From the IMG/VR virus record IMGVR_UViG_3300046000_009640, positions 1 to 27,684 of that record: 27,684 nucleotides of DNA. The stretch is one strand, 5' to 3'. The DNA comes from a virus. Within the stretch, counting starts at the first letter, position 1, and the number at the start of each line of letters is the position of its first letter. A program made the translations under genes and the position numbers. Of this stretch, positions 2,802 to 17,909 are shown in pieces. Below the pieces are notes generated by a model that was not told the origin of the DNA, did not search any database, and was given only the letters and a program-made list of their open reading frames with translations.

Positions 2802-3012
2802 TTGTAAAAAGTTTTATTAGTATTTTAAGTTCTTCAAGTGACTCTGGGTAGGCTTGTTTTATTCCTACATCAAACTCATTATCTTTTTCAAAATACATTA
2901 TGTAGTTAGATGAAGTAAGTCTTAGTATGTAGCGAAAAGTATTCTCAAATCATTTTACTCATTCATATTTAAATCATAGCTTTTCAAGCTCTTGTTTTGT
3001 TGGTGTGTACAT
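2758..3012 (-). CDS. MYTPTK-family small protein, copy 1 (84 aa)
   Basis: The N-terminus MYTPTKQELEKLGF matches that of a second gene at 8199-8432 (MYTPTKTELEELGF), and both C-termini end in a PESLEELKILI-like helix (PRSLDHLKQII in the other). They are therefore paralogues. Three UGA-Gly codons occur in the first 20 residues. TAACCTTT lies 13 bases before ATG, the start context repeated at several genes here. Function unknown. Confidence 0.68.
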
Positions 3013-3237
3013 ATATTAAAGGTTAAATCTTCAACACTAAGAGACAAGAAAACTCAGGCAGAAAAGCAAATCTTCTTATCTCCTAGCAACCGATTGATCC
3101 AGAGTAGCGAATTTATCAGAGGATCAATCTTTACTTATTATGAGTGGGCGAACTAGGTCACAACAAGTAGTTGAAAATTGTATGTGGTAAACCGAGTTAA
3201 TTAACTCGATCCAATCCGTAGACTGGAATCGAAGCAA
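3013..3237 (-). other. Structured non-coding interval downstream of the RusA gene
   Basis: This 225-base gap is GC-richer than the neighbouring genes. Leftward from the RusA stop, the minus-strand RNA could form a 6-bp hairpin capped by a UACG tetraloop (3226-3211), then the perfect 16-base palindrome CGAGTTAATTAACTCG (3208-3193), then a 9-bp stem GATTGATCC/GGATCAATC (3129-3121 with 3100-3092). No promoter of the shared 16-bp type is visible. It could be a processing or stability element, an operator at the palindrome, or a leader for the next gene. Confidence 0.5.
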
Positions 3238-3633
3238 CTAGTCCATAAATATTATTTTGTCTTCATCACTCCACCATTTATCTGCGGATAGTTTCCATAT
3301 CTTGCAATCATCTTTTGACTTATTTGTAGGATCATAGAAAAGAGTATCAGTAAATGCTTTGAAAAGATTATCAATATCTGGAGTATTTTGGTTTGGTTTT
3401 CCTCTCATCTCATCTTGTTTCTTTTTACTCCAAGAAACAGGCATTTTAGAGTCGAATTGTATGTGATATGTACCTTCTATCATCTTTCGTATAATCTCTT
3501 GTCTATGGGGCATCAAGTGAGTTCTGAGAGCATTCATTTTACTATGATAGTCTATAGCGGATTTTGTAAATCTTCCTCACTTTCAATTTACTCTCTTAGC
3601 TGGGAATGGCTTGATTGGGATTATTAGATACAT
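3238..3633 (-). CDS. rusA: RusA-family Holliday junction resolvase (131 aa)
   Basis: RusA resolves four-way DNA junctions during phage recombination and before packaging. Signature features seen: N-terminal IPIKPFPAKR, the MPVSWSKKKQDEM block (64-76), and NTPDIDNLFKA with D86, D88 and K92. These align with catalytic D70, D72 and K76 of E. coli RusA; D108 or D109 is the likely third Asp. The length is normal for the family. Two UGA-Gly codons near residues 17-19 hide the true start under the standard code. It overlaps the upstream HNH gene by 10 bases. With the SSAP at 6017-6694 it forms the recombination set. Confidence 0.93.
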
Positions 3634-5295: not shown

Positions 5296-5886
5296 CTATA
5301 AACCGAGTACCTTCTTCTGCTTATCTTTATATTTAAAGATAAATCCACCCGATGTTTTCTGTTTTAATCTGCAACAGTTTGATATATGTGATGAATATAA
5401 TCATAATCATCTTTGTATATCAATCATTGAATCCCATTCTTTGATAAATTCTCAATCCAACGAGTATTGATTTACTTTTTTAGAACTAATACTATCTTTT
5501 CAGAATTTTCATTTACAAGGATGATTTGTATAATAATGATGATTTTTTGTTGCTTTCTTTAATCAAGTATCATATGCGTGTTTAACATTTTCACTATCAG
5601 TTGCCCATTCAAGGTTTTCTACGCGATTATCAGTTTTAATTCAGTTTTTATGATTAACTGTTCTTTTATTTTCTGGATTCTGTATAAAAGCCTGAGCCAC
5701 TAATCTATGTACTTTACAAGTTTTTTTAAATCAATCTATATACAAAAATGTATTTACATATCAATAATTTAATGTTCATATCAATAATTTAATTTTATTA
5801 AAATAAATACTTTTGACTCTACCAATAGAACTCACCTCATATAATCATTCATATCATACCACTGGTTTCCAAATTTCTGTTTCCAT
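5296..5886 (-). CDS. NUMOD4/HNH homing endonuclease (196 aa, 12 UGA-Gly)
   Basis: Domains in order: NUMOD4 at about 5-30 (EIWKPVVGYEGLYEVSSIGRV), HNH core at about 58-105 with HRLVAQAF, NHKNGIKTDN and VENLEWATDSENV (H60, H79, N81, N87), and a C-terminal NUMOD1-like repeat at about 138-186 (VNQYSLDGEFI, ISNCCRLKQKTSGG). This is the standard layout of free-standing phage homing endonucleases that cut intron- or gene-less alleles and promote their own spread. It is expressed from its own promoter (5987-6014) through a pseudoknotted leader, so its translation is probably restrained. Confidence 0.92.
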
Positions 5887-5904
5887 AGCAATAAAAAAGA
5901 CACT

Positions 5905-5980
5905 CTATCGGGGCGGAGAATTGCATTTACAACCCCGATAGAATGCCCATTAATGGCAATCCTCTCTTTAATGTAAATGC
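5905..5980 (-). ncRNA. 5'-terminal H-type pseudoknot leader (element 2)
   Basis: On the minus strand, in order: S1 GCATTTACA (5980-5972); a 30-nt loop that can hold a small GCC/GGC hairpin; S2 CTATCGGGG (5941-5933); one U (5932); S1' TGTAAATGC (5931-5923); a 9-nt loop; S2' CCCCGATAG (5913-5905). Both stems are perfect 9-bp pairs and they interlock as in an H-type pseudoknot. Predicted +1 of the promoter at 5987-6014 is 5980, the first base of S1. It ends 18 bases before the endonuclease ATG and is followed by TTTTTT. The same architecture occurs at 12592-12654. Confidence 0.72.
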
Positions 5981-5986
5981 GTAGCT

Positions 5987-7237: not shown

Positions 7238-7786
7238 TTATTGAACATTTAAATTATACGACCATTTGTATCAACAAGATGTTTTTTGTTTTCATCTACA
7301 ACAATCAGATATATTATTACTGGAAATTTTATAAAGTTCTGCAGCAGATTTTATAGATATAAAATCTCGTATATAAATATTATCTACAGTATATTGGTAA
7401 ACTACTTTTGATAAATAATGTAATTCTCTTTTCTTTCATTTCCAATAACAAGGACTTTTTGTTCTTCATTCATCCCACATTTGTTTTACATTATCCTTAG
7501 ATGTTCCCCATTTTAAATTATATAAAGAATTATTTTTAGTATTATTATCTAAGTGCATTACTATGGGTAGATTTTCAGGATTAGGAATAAAGTATTTAGC
7601 TACAAGTCTATGATGTTTTTCTTGTCTACGATTTCATTTAAAACATAAAGTAGCACACCTATATCATCATTTAGATGATCATCATTTTAGTATTTTTCCT
7701 TTTCAGGTTACTATACTTTTAATTTCTCAATTAGATCATACTTTATATAATCATTCATATCATTCAATGTCGATCCATTCAATCAT
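7238..7786 (-). CDS. NUMOD4/HNH homing endonuclease (182 aa, 14 UGA-Gly)
   Basis: NUMOD4 at 1-25 (EWIDIEGYEGLYKVGSNGEI), HNH core at about 57-102 with KHHRLVAKYF, MHLDNNTKNNSLYNLKW and KDNV (H58/H59, H78, N81/N82, N99), then a C-terminal DNA-binding region with SAAELYKISSNNISDCCRGK (NUMOD1-like). Fourteen UGA codons, including adjacent pairs, are read as Gly; the standard code leaves no ORF here. It shares domain order with the endonuclease at 5296-5886, but the two differ enough to be independent arrivals or old duplicates. It has its own promoter at 7809-7836. Confidence 0.92.
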
Positions 7787-9573: not shown

Positions 9574-9601
9574 ATTATATGAATTATTACTATAATTGCA
9601 A
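9574..9601 (-). promoter_or_regulatory. Promoter, TTGCAA-16-TATAAT
   Basis: Minus strand -35 TTGCAA (9601-9596), 16-base spacer, -10 TATAAT (9579-9574), predicted start about 9567. The upstream TATACTTGCAATTATA context matches the promoter at 1758-1785. It sits in the gap after the 60-aa gene and drives the metallopeptidase cluster. Confidence 0.75.
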
Positions 9602-9640
9602 GTATAATCGTATACTTTCTTTATAATTAGATTGACGAAT

Positions 9641-9823
9641 TTAAAATTTAATTCAATTGTCTTTCATCTGAGTTGCTATATCCAGTATTCTTGAAAAATA
9701 CTCATCAATCGGTGCATTTTTTAAATGATTAAATTCCTTATCAAGTCATATTCTCCAAGTATCATAATCAATACTTCTTTCATTAGCCCGTTTTGCTTTT
9801 CCTATCATCCAGTTTGATATCAT
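9641..9823 (-). CDS. Small protein, unknown (60 aa)
   Basis: ATG at 9823 to TAA at 9641, two UGA-Gly codons. Amphipathic, with IGKAKRANERSIDYDTW at the start and an acidic helical middle. Last gene before the gap holding the promoter at 9574-9601, so probably the end of the unit that starts near 11100. No family recognised. Confidence 0.58.
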
Positions 9824-9834
9824 ATTTTAAATTG

Positions 9835-9954
9835 TTAATCGTTTAATTGCTTATCATACCACTTACAAGAGCATTCTCTAGAACAAAAAGAAAACTCTCC
9901 ATATGGATCAGATTCAAAGTCCTTGTTACATTCCATACATTGCCATATTGCCAT
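9835..9954 (-). CDS. Zinc-finger mini-protein (39 aa)
   Basis: Four to five Cys in CMEC (6-9) and FCSREC (23-28), the CxxC...CxxxC layout of a small zinc knuckle like those of MYM/FCS fingers, covering nearly the whole protein. No UGA. It follows the 30-aa gene with a 2-base gap. Likely nucleic-acid or protein binding. Confidence 0.6.
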   Translation of the reverse strand: MAIWQCMECNKDFESDPYGEFSFCSRECSCKWYDKQLND

Positions 9955-9956
9955 AC

Positions 9957-10049
9957 TTATATAGTTAATCGTTGTGATAATTCCTTATAACTCGCTAATA
10001 TATTCCTACATCTTCTCAATGCTTCCTGAGTTTCTTTTAGTTCTGTCAT
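9957..10049 (-). CDS. Mini-protein (30 aa)
   Basis: One helix, charged (TELKETQEALRRCRNILASY), no UGA. ATAACTATG start context and 2-base gaps on both sides support it. Too short for any assignment. Confidence 0.42.
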   Translation of the reverse strand: MTELKETQEALRRCRNILASYKELSQRLTI

Positions 10050-10051
10050 AG

Positions 10052-10186
10052 TTATTCATTAATAGATTTAAGTATTTTTGTTGCTTTTAATACTATTGCA
10101 TCTGCTTCTCTAAAATTCATTGTTCAAAGTGTAGACTCCAGCATATCAATTACAGCTCATACTATGAGTTTCTCTTGTTTTTCCAT
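10052..10186 (-). CDS. Small helical protein (44 aa)
   Basis: ATG at 10186, TAA at 10052, two UGA-Gly codons. Two predicted helices (EKLIVGAVIDMLESTL and READAIVLKATKILKSI). Tight spacing with the next gene. No family recognised. Confidence 0.5.
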
Positions 10187-10217
10187 AAGTTATTTAATTA
10201 AATAGTAGGGGAGTTAT

Positions 10218-10394
10218 TTATCCATCCAAGTGTACAAATTCTCTAATAATATCTGGTAATGATAGATAGATATTTTCTTTAATCCACCTTTCTTCTAATT
10301 CGTTCGCATCATCTAAATTCATAATACCATATATTGCTTCAAAGGTATTTGGAAATCTTATTTCTAGTGATTTTCTTTTATATTTATTTTCCAT
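10218..10394 (-). CDS. Small acidic protein (58 aa)
   Basis: No UGA. KYKRKSLEIRFPNTFEAIYG opens a beta-then-helix pattern; the rest is acidic helix. Flanking gaps of about 23-31 bases hold nothing evident. Function unknown. Confidence 0.5.
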   Translation of the reverse strand: MENKYKRKSLEIRFPNTFEAIYGIMNLDDANELEERWIKENIYLSLPDIIREFVHLDG

Positions 10395-11166: not shown

Positions 11167-11619
11167 TTATTGTCTTTTTCTTTTCTTATAAGTATATCCA
11201 AGTTTACTAGAAATTAATTGTTCTGTTCATTCTATTGATATTCATTGTTCAGGAGTAGAGTGATATTCTTCGTGGCATTTATTACATAGAATAAATAAGT
11301 GATGTAATGGCTCATATCATACTTTATCATAGCTTCCGTGATGACATATGAGTTTTTCTGTAGATCAACAAGCCTCGCATTTATTACCAACTAATTCTAA
11401 TAAGTTGTTCCGCTTATTCTTCCATTCTTTCGATATGAGATATTCGTGGTACATTACCGCTCTTTGTTCGTATAATTTTTTAATCTGGGAGCTGTGATAT
11501 TTAAGTTTTATTGATATATCAGCAAACTGGCTATTTTCTTTTTTAAGTCAGGAAAGAGTTATATTCGTTGGCATTTTGTACGGATTGAATCAGGTATCGG
11601 AAGGACTGCGAGTATTCAT
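11167..11619 (-). CDS. HNH endonuclease-like protein (150 aa)
   Basis: A helical N-terminal half (SQFADISIKLKYHSSQIKKL, possibly DNA-binding) precedes a zinc-HNH domain: CEAC at 81-84, CHHGSYDKV with H93/H94, LHHLFILCNKCHEEYH with C112, C115, H116 and H120. Six or so UGA-Gly codons, one directly after the first CxxC. The N-terminus is uncertain: ATG at 11574 (MPTNITLSG) is an alternative, since a 47-codon GTG ORF overlaps the first part in another frame. It is the first leftward gene of the early arm. Could be a free-standing homing endonuclease. Confidence 0.82.
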
Positions 11620-11950
11620 AGTTTCTTTTGGTTATAGTTCAAGATCCTGAGATAGGAAGTCACGGGGCATTTCAGATACAATCCACCCTATATCCCTCCT
11701 TAAATAGAAAGATAGGCTTCCGTCCCTTATTGAGGGATTACACACTTTCGTGATCGTACTAGTACCATTTTTATACTCCTTTCCCTACTAAGAAGCGGGT
11801 GGCGGTTGAGAGTTTCCTAGAAGTAAGTTCGAGTCCTTTCGCTTCGTTGGATAATACGGGGGTAGAATTCTTTAGACTCGCTATCTACAATGTTATCTAT
11901 AGCTTGTTATCTTCACTATAGCACCATCCTTGTTACAGGTTCGAGTATAC
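11620..11950 (-). other. GC-rich structured leader before the HNH gene
   Basis: About 330 bases without a confident gene, visibly GC-richer than the rest. On the minus strand it holds a CACGAAAGTG hairpin, TCCCT/AGGGA, and two strong Shine-Dalgarno sequences that are rare elsewhere here: AAAGGAG seven bases before ATG at 11768 (13-codon ORF to 11727) and AAGGAGG eight bases before GTG at 11686 (47-codon ORF to 11543, two UGA). tRNA-like T-loop sequences (GTTCGAGT on the plus strand near 11828 and 11940) do not fold into a tRNA. Transcription probably comes by read-through of the terminator at 11951-11981. Confidence 0.4.
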
Positions 11951-11981
11951 GAAAAAGCACCAGTCATTTCTGATTGGTGCT
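11951..11981 (-). terminator. Rho-independent terminator of the small RNA
   Basis: Minus strand: AGCACCA, one mismatch, TCA, GAAA tetraloop, TGA, TGGTGCT, then TTTTT. A strong 10-bp stem plus U-run, positioned about 75-100 bases after the leftward promoter. Confidence 0.8.
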
Positions 11982-12054
11982 AAGTCGTCACTCTGATTAT
12001 TACGGAGGATTGGCGACTCCGATGCCAATCAGAGTTATTTTGAATACTTTATTC
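11951..12054 (-). ncRNA. ~100-nt structured small RNA with own promoter and terminator
   Basis: Predicted start near 12054 from the promoter at 12061-12088, ending in the terminator at 11981-11952. The body has a perfect 9-bp stem ACTCTGATT/AATCAGAGT (12035-12027 with 11998-11990). Inside it, GATTGGC/GCCAATC and CGGAG/CTCCG offer mutually exclusive hairpins. No ORF is present. Not recognised as tRNA, 6S, tmRNA or a known riboswitch. It may act as a separate sRNA or as an attenuated leader of the HNH unit. Confidence 0.6.
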
Positions 12055-12060
12055 ATAGTC

Positions 12061-12088
12061 ATATTATTCAAGAATGTATTTCTGTCAA
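12061..12088 (-). promoter_or_regulatory. Leftward promoter of small RNA, TTGACA-16-TAATAT
   Basis: Minus strand -35 TTGACA (12088-12083, perfect consensus), 16-base spacer, -10 TAATAT (12066-12061). Divergent from the rightward promoter at 12120-12147, with 31 bases between the two -35 boxes, so one activator or repressor could control both. Confidence 0.65.
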
Positions 12089-12119: not shown

Positions 12120-12147
12120 TTGCAAATAATCATAAAATAGATATAAT
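12120..12147 (+). promoter_or_regulatory. Rightward promoter, TTGCAA-16-TATAAT
   Basis: -35 TTGCAA (12120-12125), 16-base spacer, -10 TATAAT (12142-12147), predicted start about 12154, 14 bases before the first rightward ATG. Marks the beginning of the right arm. Confidence 0.78.
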
Positions 12148-12167: not shown

Positions 12168-12272
12168 ATGTCTATACAAGAACAACAGTCTATATTAAAA
12201 CAGATTCAAGAATTACTTGCTATTTATAATGAATCAGTTGGAGTAGAAGGATATAAAAAACAACTCGTATAA
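12168..12272 (+). CDS. Mini-protein (34 aa)
   Basis: First gene of the right arm. Mostly one helix (SIQEQQSILKQIQELLAIYN). No UGA. Its TAA overlaps the next ATG (TAATG), suggesting coupled translation with the HExxH protein. Function unknown. Confidence 0.55.
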   Translation: MSIQEQQSILKQIQELLAIYNESVGVEGYKKQLV

Positions 12273-12571
12273 TGAAGAAACGAATATATAACGATACATT
12301 CTGATTTGAAGTAGTAATAACAGATAAGAAGAAACACTATCCATATCAAATACCAGATCGAGCAGAAGCAATATGTCATATAGAACCTGATATAGCATAC
12401 TTGTATATTAAAACCAATACTCATAGAGTTCTTGTACACGAATGTATACATATAGCTCAGGGAATACTACACCATAAAGGAATAAAAACTTGATACAATA
12501 ATACTGAGGTACTCGCTTATGTTACAGATTGGATCTATAACGAAATATTAAAAATACTTGAAAATAAATAA
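12272..12571 (+). CDS. Small HExxH metallopeptidase-like protein (99 aa)
   Basis: RVLVHECIHIAQG carries H56, E57 and H60; 19 residues on, NTEVLAYVTDW gives E79 as candidate third zinc ligand, as in gluzincins. No signal peptide, so cytoplasmic. Two UGA-Gly codons (F-G-F at 10-12 and T-G-Y at 73-75). The size is near the minimum for such a fold. Phage proteins of this kind are usually uncharacterised; a role in cleaving a host regulator is only a guess. Confidence 0.72.
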
Positions 12572-12585
12572 TAAATGAATATAAT
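12558..12585 (+). promoter_or_regulatory. Promoter, TTGAAA-16-TATAAT
   Basis: -35 TTGAAA (12558-12563) lies in the end of the HExxH gene; 16-base spacer; -10 TATAAT (12580-12585). Predicted start 12592, the first base of the pseudoknot. Drives the small-gene run and possibly the terminase genes. Confidence 0.72.
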
Positions 12586-12591
12586 ACTCTC

Positions 12592-12654
12592 ACTATAGAC
12601 TTAAATAACTTACTAACAATAAATCCGGGTGTCTATAGTAAGTAGCCCGGATTT
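12592..12654 (+). ncRNA. 5'-terminal H-type pseudoknot leader (element 1)
   Basis: In order: S1 ACTATAGAC (12592-12600), 20-nt loop, S2 AAATCCGGG (12621-12629), one U (12630), S1' GTCTATAGT (12631-12639), 6-nt loop, S2' CCCGGATTT (12646-12654). Two perfect 9-bp stems interlock. S1 starts at the predicted +1 and S2' ends 8 bases before the ATG at 12663, so the folded form would cover the ribosome-loading region. A 7-codon ORF at 12575-12598 overlaps S1 but starts before the predicted transcript. Same architecture as 5905-5980. Confidence 0.75.
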
Positions 12655-12662
12655 TATGTACT

Positions 12663-12965
12663 ATGACAAAAAATGAAATACTATTACAAAGAATAATTAA
12701 ACTAGAAAATAGATTGAATATTGTAGAATCAGATATAGAAAGAAATTGTGAAGTAGCGAACTATAATCAGAAGAACACAGATAAATTATTTAATAAACTT
12801 ATTAAGAAAATATTTTGAAAGAAAAGAAAAGTTGAATATGTAAATTACATTCCTAATAAAAATGAAAATAGTGAATCAGATTTTGAAGAAGCTGAATTTG
12901 GTTCTAAATCTTCAGAATACCAACCTTGCTGATGTCCAAAATGAGTTACTTGCCCTTGATATTAA
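12663..12965 (+). CDS. Coiled-coil protein with Cys tail (100 aa)
   Basis: N-terminal helix with heptad pattern (EILLQRIIKLENRLNIVESD), a basic patch (KKIFGKKRKV), an acidic linker, and a C-terminal C-G-C-P-K-G-V-T-C-P cluster with three Cys where Gly residues are UGA-coded. Four UGA codons in all, three in the last 11 residues. Expressed through the pseudoknot leader; autoregulation by binding that RNA is possible. No family recognised. Confidence 0.65.
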
Positions 12966-13968: not shown

Positions 13969-14383
13969 ACCATTCTGAACATACAAGTATACTCCAGAGG
14001 AAATGCTAGAGGAATCAACAGCATATTTTTTAAATTGTGATAAGACTACAATTGATAAATGAATGGGGGCAAAAGTACAGAAACCTAAAACACTATCTTG
14101 ACTGTGTTTATGGCTTTGAGTAGAGAAAGATTACATATCTGAGAAGGCAAAAGATCCAAATTATTCCGAAACTATAAAAGGAATTAGAATGAATGTCGAG
14201 AATGATATAGAAGAATGAATACTAACTTGAATGTATAATGCTACTTCCTGAATATTCAATCTAAAGAATAACTTTAATTGGGTAGATAAAACAGAAGTTG
14301 ATCAAAATATAAAAGCACAAGTAAATAATATGACTGATATGCCTACTGATGAACTTTTACAACTAGCTAATGGCAATAACTAA
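13961..14383 (+). CDS. terS: Terminase small subunit (140 aa)
   Basis: Recognises packaging sites and delivers phage DNA to the large subunit. The PKTLSGLCLWLGV segment (HTH-like), then NVENDIEEGILTGMYNATSGIFNLKNNFNWVDKTE matches the core of P22 gp3-like small terminases, in which ALTG..NxxxxIFxLKNNFGW.DK is conserved. Six UGA-Gly codons sit mostly at Gly positions of that core (GILTG, SG). Located directly upstream of the large subunit with a 14-base overlap. Confidence 0.9.
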
Positions 14384-15830
14384 AGAACAAGCACAGCAAG
14401 AACTTGCAAAAAGAGAGCTATCATTACGATTGCTTTCTTATTTTGTTCCACAGATTGATCCATTCTATTGAAAGCCTTGAAAGGAATACATATTCAAACC
14501 ATTCCATAAGATACTAACTGATGCACTTGAACGAGCATTGAATTGAAAATGTAAAAGAATAATGATCTCAGTTCCTCCACAACATTGAAAATCAACAATC
14601 AGTACACAACGATTTCCACTATTCGCACACTTACAAGATCCAACTCTAAACATAGTATCTGCTTCTTACTCCTGAGATCTTGCAAAGTCTCACTTATGAA
14701 AGATAAGGCAGATTGTAGAAAGCCCACAGTTCAAAGTTCTATGAAAGCCTCTCAACTTCATCAAGAATGATTCTATGGAGTATCAATTAAAAGAATGAGG
14801 CTCTTATTATTCAGTATGAGTATGAGGTTGATTGACTTGACGACCAATAGATATAGGTATTATAGATGATGTTCATAAGGACAGAGCAGAATATGAATCA
14901 GATACAATCCGTAACGGAGTTTGGGATTGGTATTCTTCTGTATTTCAATCTCGTTTACATAAAGACTCTATTATTATCGGAGTAATGACAAGATGGGGAG
15001 AAGATGATCTCTTTTGAAGGATATTAGAAGCTGAATGAGACAAATGGGAAATTATCAATATTCCTGTCTATAACGAGGAAAAAACAGAGACTATATTTCC
15101 TGAGAGATTTCCTTTGGAGTTTATGAAAGATAAAGAAAATGCGATGATGGCTCGTGATTTCCAATCTCTCTATATGTGAGATCCAATAAATGAATGAGGT
15201 TGAGATTTTAAGAGAGAATACTTCCAATACTACCAAGAAGCACCTATATTTGCTCGTAAATACTCTTTTATTGATCCTGCTATTAGTCAAAAGCAAGAAG
15301 CAGACTTTACAGCTATAGTTACAATCTGAGTCACTAATGATAATAAGATATATATTCTGGACATAATTAGAGAGAGATTGCTTCCAGATGAGATAATAAA
15401 CAACGCAATTAGAGTAGCAGAACACTACAATGTAGATGCAATAGGAGTTGAGGTAGTACAATATCAGAAGATGCTCGCAATGGAGCTAAAAAAACAAATG
15501 ATACTACGAAACAAAATGTTTAGAGTATTCGAGATGAATCCTTCCTGAGAAAAGAATGTAAGAATAAAATCTATACTACAAACTCGTTACTCACTAATGA
15601 CTATATATCATAAAAAATATTGAACTAATGTAGATGAACTTGAACTTGAACTCCTCAAATTTCCTAATGCTAAGCACGATGATATGATTGACTCTCTCGC
15701 AAGTGCTGTTAATATAGCAAGTATAGAATATAAACAAGAAGCAGAAATTCCAAAAACAGAAGATGATCCTCTCTGAATACTAAAAGATGAATGGATAGAA
15801 GAAGTAGAAATAGATTTTAGCCCTTTTTAA
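14370..15830 (+). CDS. terL: Terminase large subunit (486 aa, 21 UGA-Gly)
   Basis: ATP-driven packaging motor with a headful-type nuclease. ATPase: Walker A PPQHGKS at 69-75 with the invariant Gly73 encoded by UGA; Walker B IIDD (D166, D167); coupling motif TRW at 207-209. Nuclease: FIDPA with D302, VEVVQ with E361, KHDDMIDS with D437, D438 and D441. The order and spacing fit complete terminases of normal length. Of about 29 Gly residues, 21 are UGA. This is the best single proof of code 25 in the window. Confidence 0.97.
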
Positions 15831-16094: not shown

Positions 16095-17909
16095 ATGGAT
16101 GATACAGAAATCCTCGCAAGAATAAGACTACAAAAAGAGCAATGAGAACAGAATGTACAAACTCAAAAGCTCGAAATTGAATCTGATATTAAACTAATAC
16201 GATGAACTAAAAAGAAAGGAAAAGAAAAGCTCATCGGAGATTTTTCTATGTCTTCTAAGGTAAGAAATCTTATCGCTCGTTCTTATTATACAAAAAGTCC
16301 TATCAATATTCGACCAACTAAAAATGGTAGTGAAAGAATAGCAAAGGCACAAAACAAACTCTATAAAGAAGATAGAGATACTCCAGAAATGAAAGCTCTT
16401 CGCTATTACAAAGATAGTGACAAGTATTCTACAGGAGTATCTTGTATTGCAAAAGTAGGTTGGGATGGAAAAACTAAGAGTCCTAAATGGGATAGAGTAA
16501 ATCCTCTATTATGTGTACCTGATCCATTCGGAGACTACTTCACAGGAGACTATCGCTATATTTGATTCTATTCTATTCGTACAAAGGAAGAAATGGACAA
16601 CCTAGGTTGGGACACGAGTTGGTGTAAAGATGCTATAGGAGGAGAAAAAGACCGCAAAAGAACAGAACAATTAAATGCTGGAGTATTACCACAATATGAT
16701 AATACAATATTCGACATTTATATGCACTTCGAGGAAATCGAGGAAGCAAAAGAATGAGACAATGAAAAAATAATGCTATATATTACTGATGGTAATTGCA
16801 AGCATATCCTAGAAAAGAAAGTATTGAGCGAAATGCCTTTCGTATTCTTTTACTGGAGTCCTAACGGAACATTCTTCGGAGATCGACCAGCTAACTATAT
16901 TCGAGATACTCAACTATGGAAAGCTGAAATGAGAAACCTTCAAGCTGACAAGGTAAGACAAGAAGTATATGTGCAATGGCTTTATAATTCTGATTATGTA
17001 AGTGGAAAAGATATAGGATTCTGACTCAATAAGAAAATACCTATCAAATCAGGTCTTGACGGTGCAAATATACCACTTTCAAACATAGTAACACCAATAC
17101 AACACAATACGAGAATAGATGCAAGTAATACATTTATTCAAGAACTTGAACAAGATGTGAATAATGCTCTTGCACTCGGAGAAATAGCACAATGAAGCAC
17201 TCCAGATCGTAGAGAAACAGCAAAAACAAATAGCCTTGTAATGGATGCAACTGATGTGATCCTTTCTCTTAATGAAGAAATGGATTCTATATGAGAACAA
17301 CAGTTTGCAATACTATGGTACTCTGCATACGCAGAACACTTCACAGAAGCAGACAAAAAGATTATTTACGCAGGAAGCTGAACAGGACAATCACCAATTA
17401 TAATAACTCGTAAAGACTTTATTATAGAAGGAAATCTATCACTTGAAATTGAAACTGGTTCTGCAAGAGAAAAAAGACAATCAAAAGAAATAGCTTGGAG
17501 AACACAAACAAGTCCGCTTATTCTGCAAGATCCTGAAATCAATCAATCAAGCAAGAGAATAATCCTTCGCAAGCTCTTACTTGCCTGAGGTGCTGAAATG
17601 GAAGACATAGAAGAAGAAGTACCAATGACAGCACAATACACACTTCAACAGAATGAGAATATTATTCTACAAAATGAATACATAGGTATCAATCATACTG
17701 ATGACGATGATGAACACTTGATTGCAATGGGAAGTATCAATCCTGAAGATATATATATGATAGCTCATCAAGCTGCTCATATTCAATCCAAGATAGATAA
17801 ATCACAAATACAACCAGTAGAACAAGGAAATCAAATGCTCAACGGTGCAATGTCACAGGCAATGAGTCAAGCAGGCTCACAAACAGCAAAATTAAATTCT
17901 AACCAATAA
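16095..17909 (+). CDS. Portal protein (604 aa)
   Basis: Dodecameric vertex protein through which DNA is packaged and ejected. Seen: charged helical N-terminus, IGDFSMSSKVRNLIARSYYTKSP, aromatic-rich core (MPFVFFYWSPNGTFFGDRP), the TPDRRETAKTNSLVMDATD region typical of the long portal helix, and a Gln/Ala-rich C-terminus (IQSKIDKSQIQPVEQGNQML). Length and position after terL fit a P22-like portal. About nine UGA-Gly codons interrupt it under the standard code. It starts 17 bases after the predicted start of promoter A. Confidence 0.86.

Follow-up and report, generated by a model that had tools for sequence, protein, structure and literature searches.

The immunity RNAs of phages P4 and P1 (CI RNA and c4) are early-operon leaders in which several complementary segments decide on premature termination, and the immunity of P4 needs a processed RNA that acts in trans. 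To our knowledge, gene regulation is poorly known in phages of hosts of the Absconditabacteria/Gracilibacteria type, in which the genetic code is changed. In the repR leader of pIP501, attenuation is exerted by an antisense RNA, RNAIII, made as a separate counter-transcript (PMC4981023). Gifsy-1 IsrK is a dual small and messenger RNA with a short form and a read-through form (PMC4825925). The putL RNA of HK022 is about 70 nt long and is made up of two stem-loops behind PL (PMC9378689). Read as an attenuator, the phage RNA described here matches no known family, and none of these precedents fits it on all features.

The DNA analysed (the window) was the IMG/VR virus record IMGVR_UViG_3300046000_009640, positions 1-27,684 (27,684 bases). 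Its genes are open only under code 25 (TGA = glycine), and the terminase, portal and tail genes contain up to 28 in-frame TGA codons. Code 25 genes point to a host of the Absconditabacteria/Gracilibacteria type. Relatives were searched for with the terminase, capsid, Sak, portal and metallopeptidase proteins, which gave one close phage of divergent layout (L011) and fragments. The same queries had no match in genome contigs, and so gave no host genome or prophage, and GenBank phages gave zero portal or capsid matches. L011 and the window have the divergent layout in common, with terminases 67% identical and Sak proteins 72% identical. A tRNA gene with anticodon UCA is found in L011 at 16249-16324; it was labelled tRNA-SeC by the caller and is presumably a glycine tRNA reading TGA, which fits code 25. 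A tRNA/tmRNA search of the window found none.

The left arm of the window, on the minus strand, carries HNH genes along with genes for recombination (Sak annealing protein), and the right arm, on the plus strand, carries the terminase, the portal (identified by similarity to relatives), the major head protein and the tail genes. The HNH endonuclease genes of the left arm include several that belong to a single family (5296-5886 and 7238-7786). The large terminase (14370-15830) is swapped between relatives sharing portal and head proteins: the window and L011 have one type and L093, L095, L006 and L007 have another. No Shine-Dalgarno sequence precedes any of the well-supported starts of the window phage; their context is ...TATAAACT-ATG, which is rich in A and T, has T at position -1 and frequently reads AACT-ATG. 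The left arm also contains another strongly structured stretch (3012-3238, minus strand) that is apparently non-coding and has no Rfam match. It contains repeated GATTGATCC/GGATCAATC; a 110-nt stretch at 3026 folds at -38.5 kcal/mol (z -4.3) and a 281-nt stretch at -76.7 kcal/mol. The flagged RNA is located between the two arms, at the divergent centre, where the following features were found.

12120-12147, plus strand: divergent rightward promoter TTGCAA-16-TATAAT, preceding the right arm (first ATG at 12168)
12083-12088, minus strand: -35 box TTGACA of the leftward promoter, a perfect sequence match
12061-12066, minus strand: -10 box TAATAT of the leftward promoter (spacer 16 nt; 10/12 matches together with the -35 box)
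11952-12056, minus strand: leader RNA (or small RNA) of about 105 nt
12041-12055, minus strand: 5'-terminal hairpin TGAATA-AAG-TATTCA, present in every minimum-energy fold of the series
11990-12035, minus strand: leader hairpin, ACTCTGATT (12035-12027) paired perfectly with AATCAGAGT (11998-11990), inner CGGAG/CTCCG
12025-12033, minus strand: switch segment TCTGATTGG, with three alternative partner strands
12008-12030, minus strand: early-forming alternative hairpin, GATTGGC (12030-12024) with GCCAATC (12014-12008), of minimum energy for 3' ends 12007-11995
11969-11977, minus strand: antiterminator partner CCAATCAGA in the terminator 5' arm and loop edge, a perfect complement of 12033-12025 (9 bp)
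11952-11981, minus strand: intrinsic terminator, stem 11981-11956, GAAA loop and T run 11956-11952 (-11.3 kcal/mol)
11167-11619, minus strand: first clear left-arm gene, HNH endonuclease-like (code 25 ORF, PHROG HNH matches, phage-like start context)

The perfect TTGACA of the original prediction is present (minus strand, 12088-12083), and the promoter spacing would place the transcript start at about 12056. Promoter-like sites are not commoner in the contig than in shuffles (80 found versus 73 +/- 9 expected), so the promoter match by itself carries little weight. The leftward promoter is probably an early promoter. Zero promoter-like sites with at least 9/12 matches were found on the minus strand from 12060 to 11030, and the left arm is therefore without another obvious promoter. 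A solitary TATACT at 11949-11944, without -35 box, could start transcription past the terminator. The HNH gene starting at 11619, about 330 nt past the terminator, is the first with a typical phage start. The stretch in between (11620-11950) has a higher G+C content than its surroundings and contains two Shine-Dalgarno-like sites (AAGGAGG and AAGGAG), the rest of the phage having none; it could be recently acquired DNA.

The RNA from about 12056 to 11952 folds at -38 kcal/mol (z -6.6, equalled by 0/200 shuffles), and the fold z of -8.2 at this locus is the lowest among 1004 windows of 110 nt from the two strands of the contig. The terminator hairpin, GCACCAATCA-GAAA-TGACTGGTGC, occupies 11980-11957 and is followed by TTTTT at 11956-11952; a T run adjoins the hairpin on the minus strand only. 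Two further elements that had been predicted, a structured RNA with competing stems and a strong GAAA-loop terminator, were thus recovered, the first as about 105 nt at z -6.6 with three alternative pairings and the second at 11981-11952 on the minus strand. One 12-nt segment (12035-12024) has three downstream partners, with 7 to 9 perfect pairs each, and one of these partners is the terminator's own 5' arm. A single 12-nt segment with three partners was obtained in 0/5000 dinucleotide shuffles.

Minimum-energy folds were computed for growing transcripts. The hairpin 12030-12024/12014-12008 appears first and is replaced by the leader hairpin 12035-12027/11998-11990 (-22.1 kcal/mol). For 3' ends 11969-11963 the antiterminator 12033-12025/11977-11969 is the minimum (-24.1 kcal/mol), and finally the terminator is formed together with the leader hairpin (-35.5 kcal/mol). 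This modelled series is that of an attenuator in its anatomy, one whose two nascent states differ little in energy. The complete terminator state is far more stable (-40 versus -29 kcal/mol), which makes termination the default; a free small RNA would look alike.

We consider, with a probability of roughly 0.55, that the flagged RNA is a conditional terminator (attenuator) located in the leader that precedes the leftward (replication/recombination) operon. RNA polymerase would start at about 12056. Pairing of 12033-12025 with the leader strand 11998-11990 would leave the terminator free to form, and pairing of the same segment with the terminator 5' arm (11977-11969) would block it. The antiterminator would have the lowest energy only briefly, until the terminator 3' arm is made, and the terminator would win afterwards. 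Some transcripts would stop at 11952, giving an RNA of about 105 nt, and others would continue into the left arm, in a ratio that may be set by transcription speed or by a factor capturing the 5' segment. Transcription speed, a phage or host protein and the terminated RNA acting in trans are candidate controls. The promoter and terminator elements, the alternative pairings, the position of the RNA and the lack of a consensus promoter further down were computed from the DNA, as was the recurrence of the layout described below; read-through, its regulation and a role of its own for the terminated RNA are what we infer.

The original prediction stated that the RNA has no ORF. An 18-codon ORF does exist (ATG 12056 to TAATAA 12002; peptide MNKVFKITLIGIGVANPP), which qualifies this statement; codon usage of this ORF is 0.38, below every phage gene window (0.75 +/- 0.11), and coding is therefore not supported. 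Were the ORF translated as a leaderless peptide, its Pro-Pro-stop end could stall a ribosome over 11998-11990 and free the switch segment for the antiterminator. The stop codon does lie beside the leader hairpin's 3' strand, and with 12016-11988 masked the antiterminator becomes the nascent fold. Among non-start ATGs the start context ranks at the 97th percentile, Shine-Dalgarno sequences not being used by this phage. We nevertheless regard ribosome-dependent attenuation as very improbable: to the low codon usage are added the units of L011 and L109, in which no ATG-started ORF runs across the 5' segment, and the terminator fold that persists under the same mask (12016-11988) once the terminator is completed.

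The RNA was said to match no RNA class, and with Rfam at gathering scores no family reached threshold in the window. When gathering and relaxed thresholds were applied to the window, the L011 centre and the relatives, only tRNAs came above threshold. The best sub-threshold match, GA-cis (RF02987), extends at full length over 12042-11946 with 22.5 bits (cut-off 34.7), a strength expected about once by chance in a window of this size. Identity with GA-cis was rejected, the match being under the gathering score of 34.7 and its inner stem unpaired. A search for DNA look-alikes found none in phage records, in plasmids or, by pattern, in IMG/VR, comparison with the family contigs gave chance-sized matches only, and a covariance model of the flagged RNA alone found no second copy in 204 kb. 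No sequence is common to the centres of L011 and the window. Covariance across relatives had been suggested as a check; no homologue of the RNA was found among the relatives compared, and the switch is consequently without covariation of its own.

The layout recurs where the sequence does not. In the family of phages reading TGA as glycine one meets repeatedly a promoter, then a 5' segment that can pair with a terminator hairpin, and a start codon 12-21 nt further on. Two other units of this plan are present in the window.

12591-12656, plus strand: second unit, in the right arm, behind TTGAAA-16-TATAAT (12558-12585) and before a gene with ATG at 12663
5892-5983, minus strand: third unit, before an HNH endonuclease gene (ATG 5886), with TATAAT and a terminator at 5945-5901

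In the right-arm unit, ACTATAGAC stands at the inferred RNA start and GTCTATAGT in the loop of the terminator (12624-12651); in the unit before the HNH gene at 5886, GCATTTACA and TGTAAATGC hold the same two places. The left unit of L011 has TATACT, GCGACCTTGC at 5481-5490 and a terminator at 5568-5600 with GCAAGGTCGC in its loop, then TTTTT and, 19 nt further, the ATG at 5619 of a gene that we read from its sequence as encoding a replisome-organiser-like protein. No space is left there for a further promoter between terminator and gene. The genome L007/L109 contains an ortholog of this gene (MEGFIQLH...), with a unit upstream that follows the same plan in a different sequence (TATAAT, TCGGACAAAT and a terminator with ATTTGTCCGA). 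Both units have a 10-nt complement between the 5' segment and the terminator loop region and end about 20 nt before the ATG. A stable H-type pseudoknot in L011 was rejected on a geometry argument, by reasoning only, as a 1-nt loop would have to cross a 10-bp helix.

Such a unit also precedes the first HNH gene of L107. An HNH copy between the portal and head genes of L097 (2894-3340) has no leader unit, so the unit before the window HNH gene is not explained simply as a piece of a mobile HNH cassette. L107 has in addition a long intergenic stretch upstream of its early operon (9580-10300), with tRNA-Leu and tRNA-Met genes and some unassigned sequence. The right-arm leaders of L011 and L093 are homologous; CCGTGAA/TTCACGG is kept in both, and both surrounding stems differ in sequence yet remain paired.

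For the statistics, terminator-like hairpins ending at most 30 nt upstream of a same-strand gene were collected and complements were sought within 95 nt upstream. In the family, 5/6 distinct terminators had a perfect complement of 9-10 nt (each p <= 0.04 with the upstream part shuffled), and the sixth, of the L011 right-arm leader, had one of 7 nt. Among controls (79 distant phage loci, 766 kb), 0/22 terminators had a complement of at least 9 nt and one had p <= 0.05; these phages use ordinary codes and differ in composition, and the shuffles correct for composition only. The exact probability of the 5/6 versus 0/22 split is 6e-5, a figure that is partly post hoc because the idea and the test arose after L011 and L107 had been seen. 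The flagged copy is atypical, with its complement in the terminator arm and not in the loop and the next phage-like start about 330 nt away, and is therefore outside the 5/6 count; among the family's other 179 hairpins, five had p <= 0.05 and the flagged RNA was the best of them (9 nt, p 0.01).

All strong units (5/5) have a -10 hexamer, TATAAT or TATACT, 12-26 nt ahead of the 5' segment, versus 3-8% of random 30-nt windows. In 7/8 units, the flagged one included, the nascent minimum-energy fold short of the terminator 3' arm is a long-range helix between the upstream part and the terminator hairpin (in L107 through an adjacent complement, GCGAACTGAG/CTCGGTTCGC); the L011 right-arm leader alone has no such fold. 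The completed terminator displaces the long-range helix in all but the L011 left unit, whose two states are near-equal in energy. A strict kissing-loop descriptor gave 5 matches in 185 kb of the family versus 9 in 766 kb of controls, with a convincing pair in one family locus only, and the claim is thus restricted to segment-to-hairpin complementarity.

These units bear on the claim that the locus is a complete small-RNA gene. As such, transcription would always end at 11952 and the RNA of about 105 nt would have host or phage RNAs as its targets in trans. The RNA does have its own promoter and terminator, no coding and a stable 5' hairpin, the strong terminator is the final minimum-energy state, the next clear gene is about 330 nt away and relatives are without a homologous leader. 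On the other hand, the antiterminator complement to the terminator arm would be without role, the same-layout units of the phage and its relatives have a start codon 12-21 nt past their ends, and no downstream consensus promoter would serve the left arm. A stand-alone gene is in our opinion possible, and we do not favour it. An intrinsic terminator lies between the promoter and the left arm, the next clear gene being 330 nt off, and a mutually exclusive antiterminator helix (12025-12033/11969-11977) is available, both as expected of an attenuator. Because related units end 12-21 nt before an ATG, the fit is better for a conditional terminator than for a free RNA. From the original prediction we thus retain a strongly structured RNA, reaching from promoter to terminator, at the divergent centre; an independent gene is the less likely reading, and of the three functions suggested (a regulator of early/late switching, an antisense decoy or an attenuator) the attenuator is the one favoured. 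The most economical reading looks to be that the flagged RNA is one of a set of promoter-leader-terminator units of this phage family.

The conditional terminator resembles the P4 and P1 RNAs in the complementary segments of an early-operon leader and differs from them in having no Rfam match. With pIP501 it has in common a replication-gene leader in which RNA pairing decides on premature termination; here the complement lies within the same transcript, no promoter for a separate counter-transcript was seen, and kinship in sequence is not expected. Like IsrK it is a phage RNA with alternative structures and a terminated short form versus a read-through form, both forms being predicted here, whereas IsrK acts on translation of a downstream ORF and is unrelated in sequence; any trans action of the flagged RNA is putative.

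A dual RNA is conceivable, in which the terminated form would act in trans, as with IsrK, and the read-through form would be an mRNA leader. The short RNA would here expose a complement to the 5' segment and drive later transcripts to termination, a self-limiting, immunity-like action; we hold this reading to be unlikely. With a segment and its complement in each unit, any terminated RNA could serve as antisense against the nascent leader that follows, and IsrK (PMC4825925) and RNAIII attenuation in pIP501 (PMC4981023) are precedents; against this, intramolecular pairing may hide the complement, and that of the flagged copy is buried in the terminator stem.

A leader of two hairpins could also bind RNA polymerase so that later terminators are ignored. 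The put RNAs prevent later termination in this way and, like the flagged RNA, are short structured RNAs just behind divergent early phage promoters, with two hairpins directly behind the early promoter in HK022 putL (PMC9378689). The second hairpin is here itself an intrinsic terminator with a T run, which causes termination and does not suppress it; put RNAs are alike in sequence (PMC9378689), whereas these leaders share none. Put-like antitermination is therefore judged highly unlikely.

Returning to the conditional terminator, its extension to the family is more speculative. Phages using code 25 may have a class of two-state leaders that is undescribed and evolves fast. In such leaders the transcript's 5' end would be complementary to the terminator hairpin, and each terminated RNA would bind in trans the 5' segment of the nascent transcript made next, giving each operon a self-limiting, sequence-specific switch and possibly superinfection immunity; we put this forward as a tentative idea that is rather doubtful as it stands. 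If the attenuator reading is right, these phages would have a recurring and easily testable RNA switch, defined solely by complementarity between the transcript start and the terminator hairpin. Being without shared sequence, such a switch would be overlooked by sequence-based RNA searches, and it would provide a small, portable conditional terminator.
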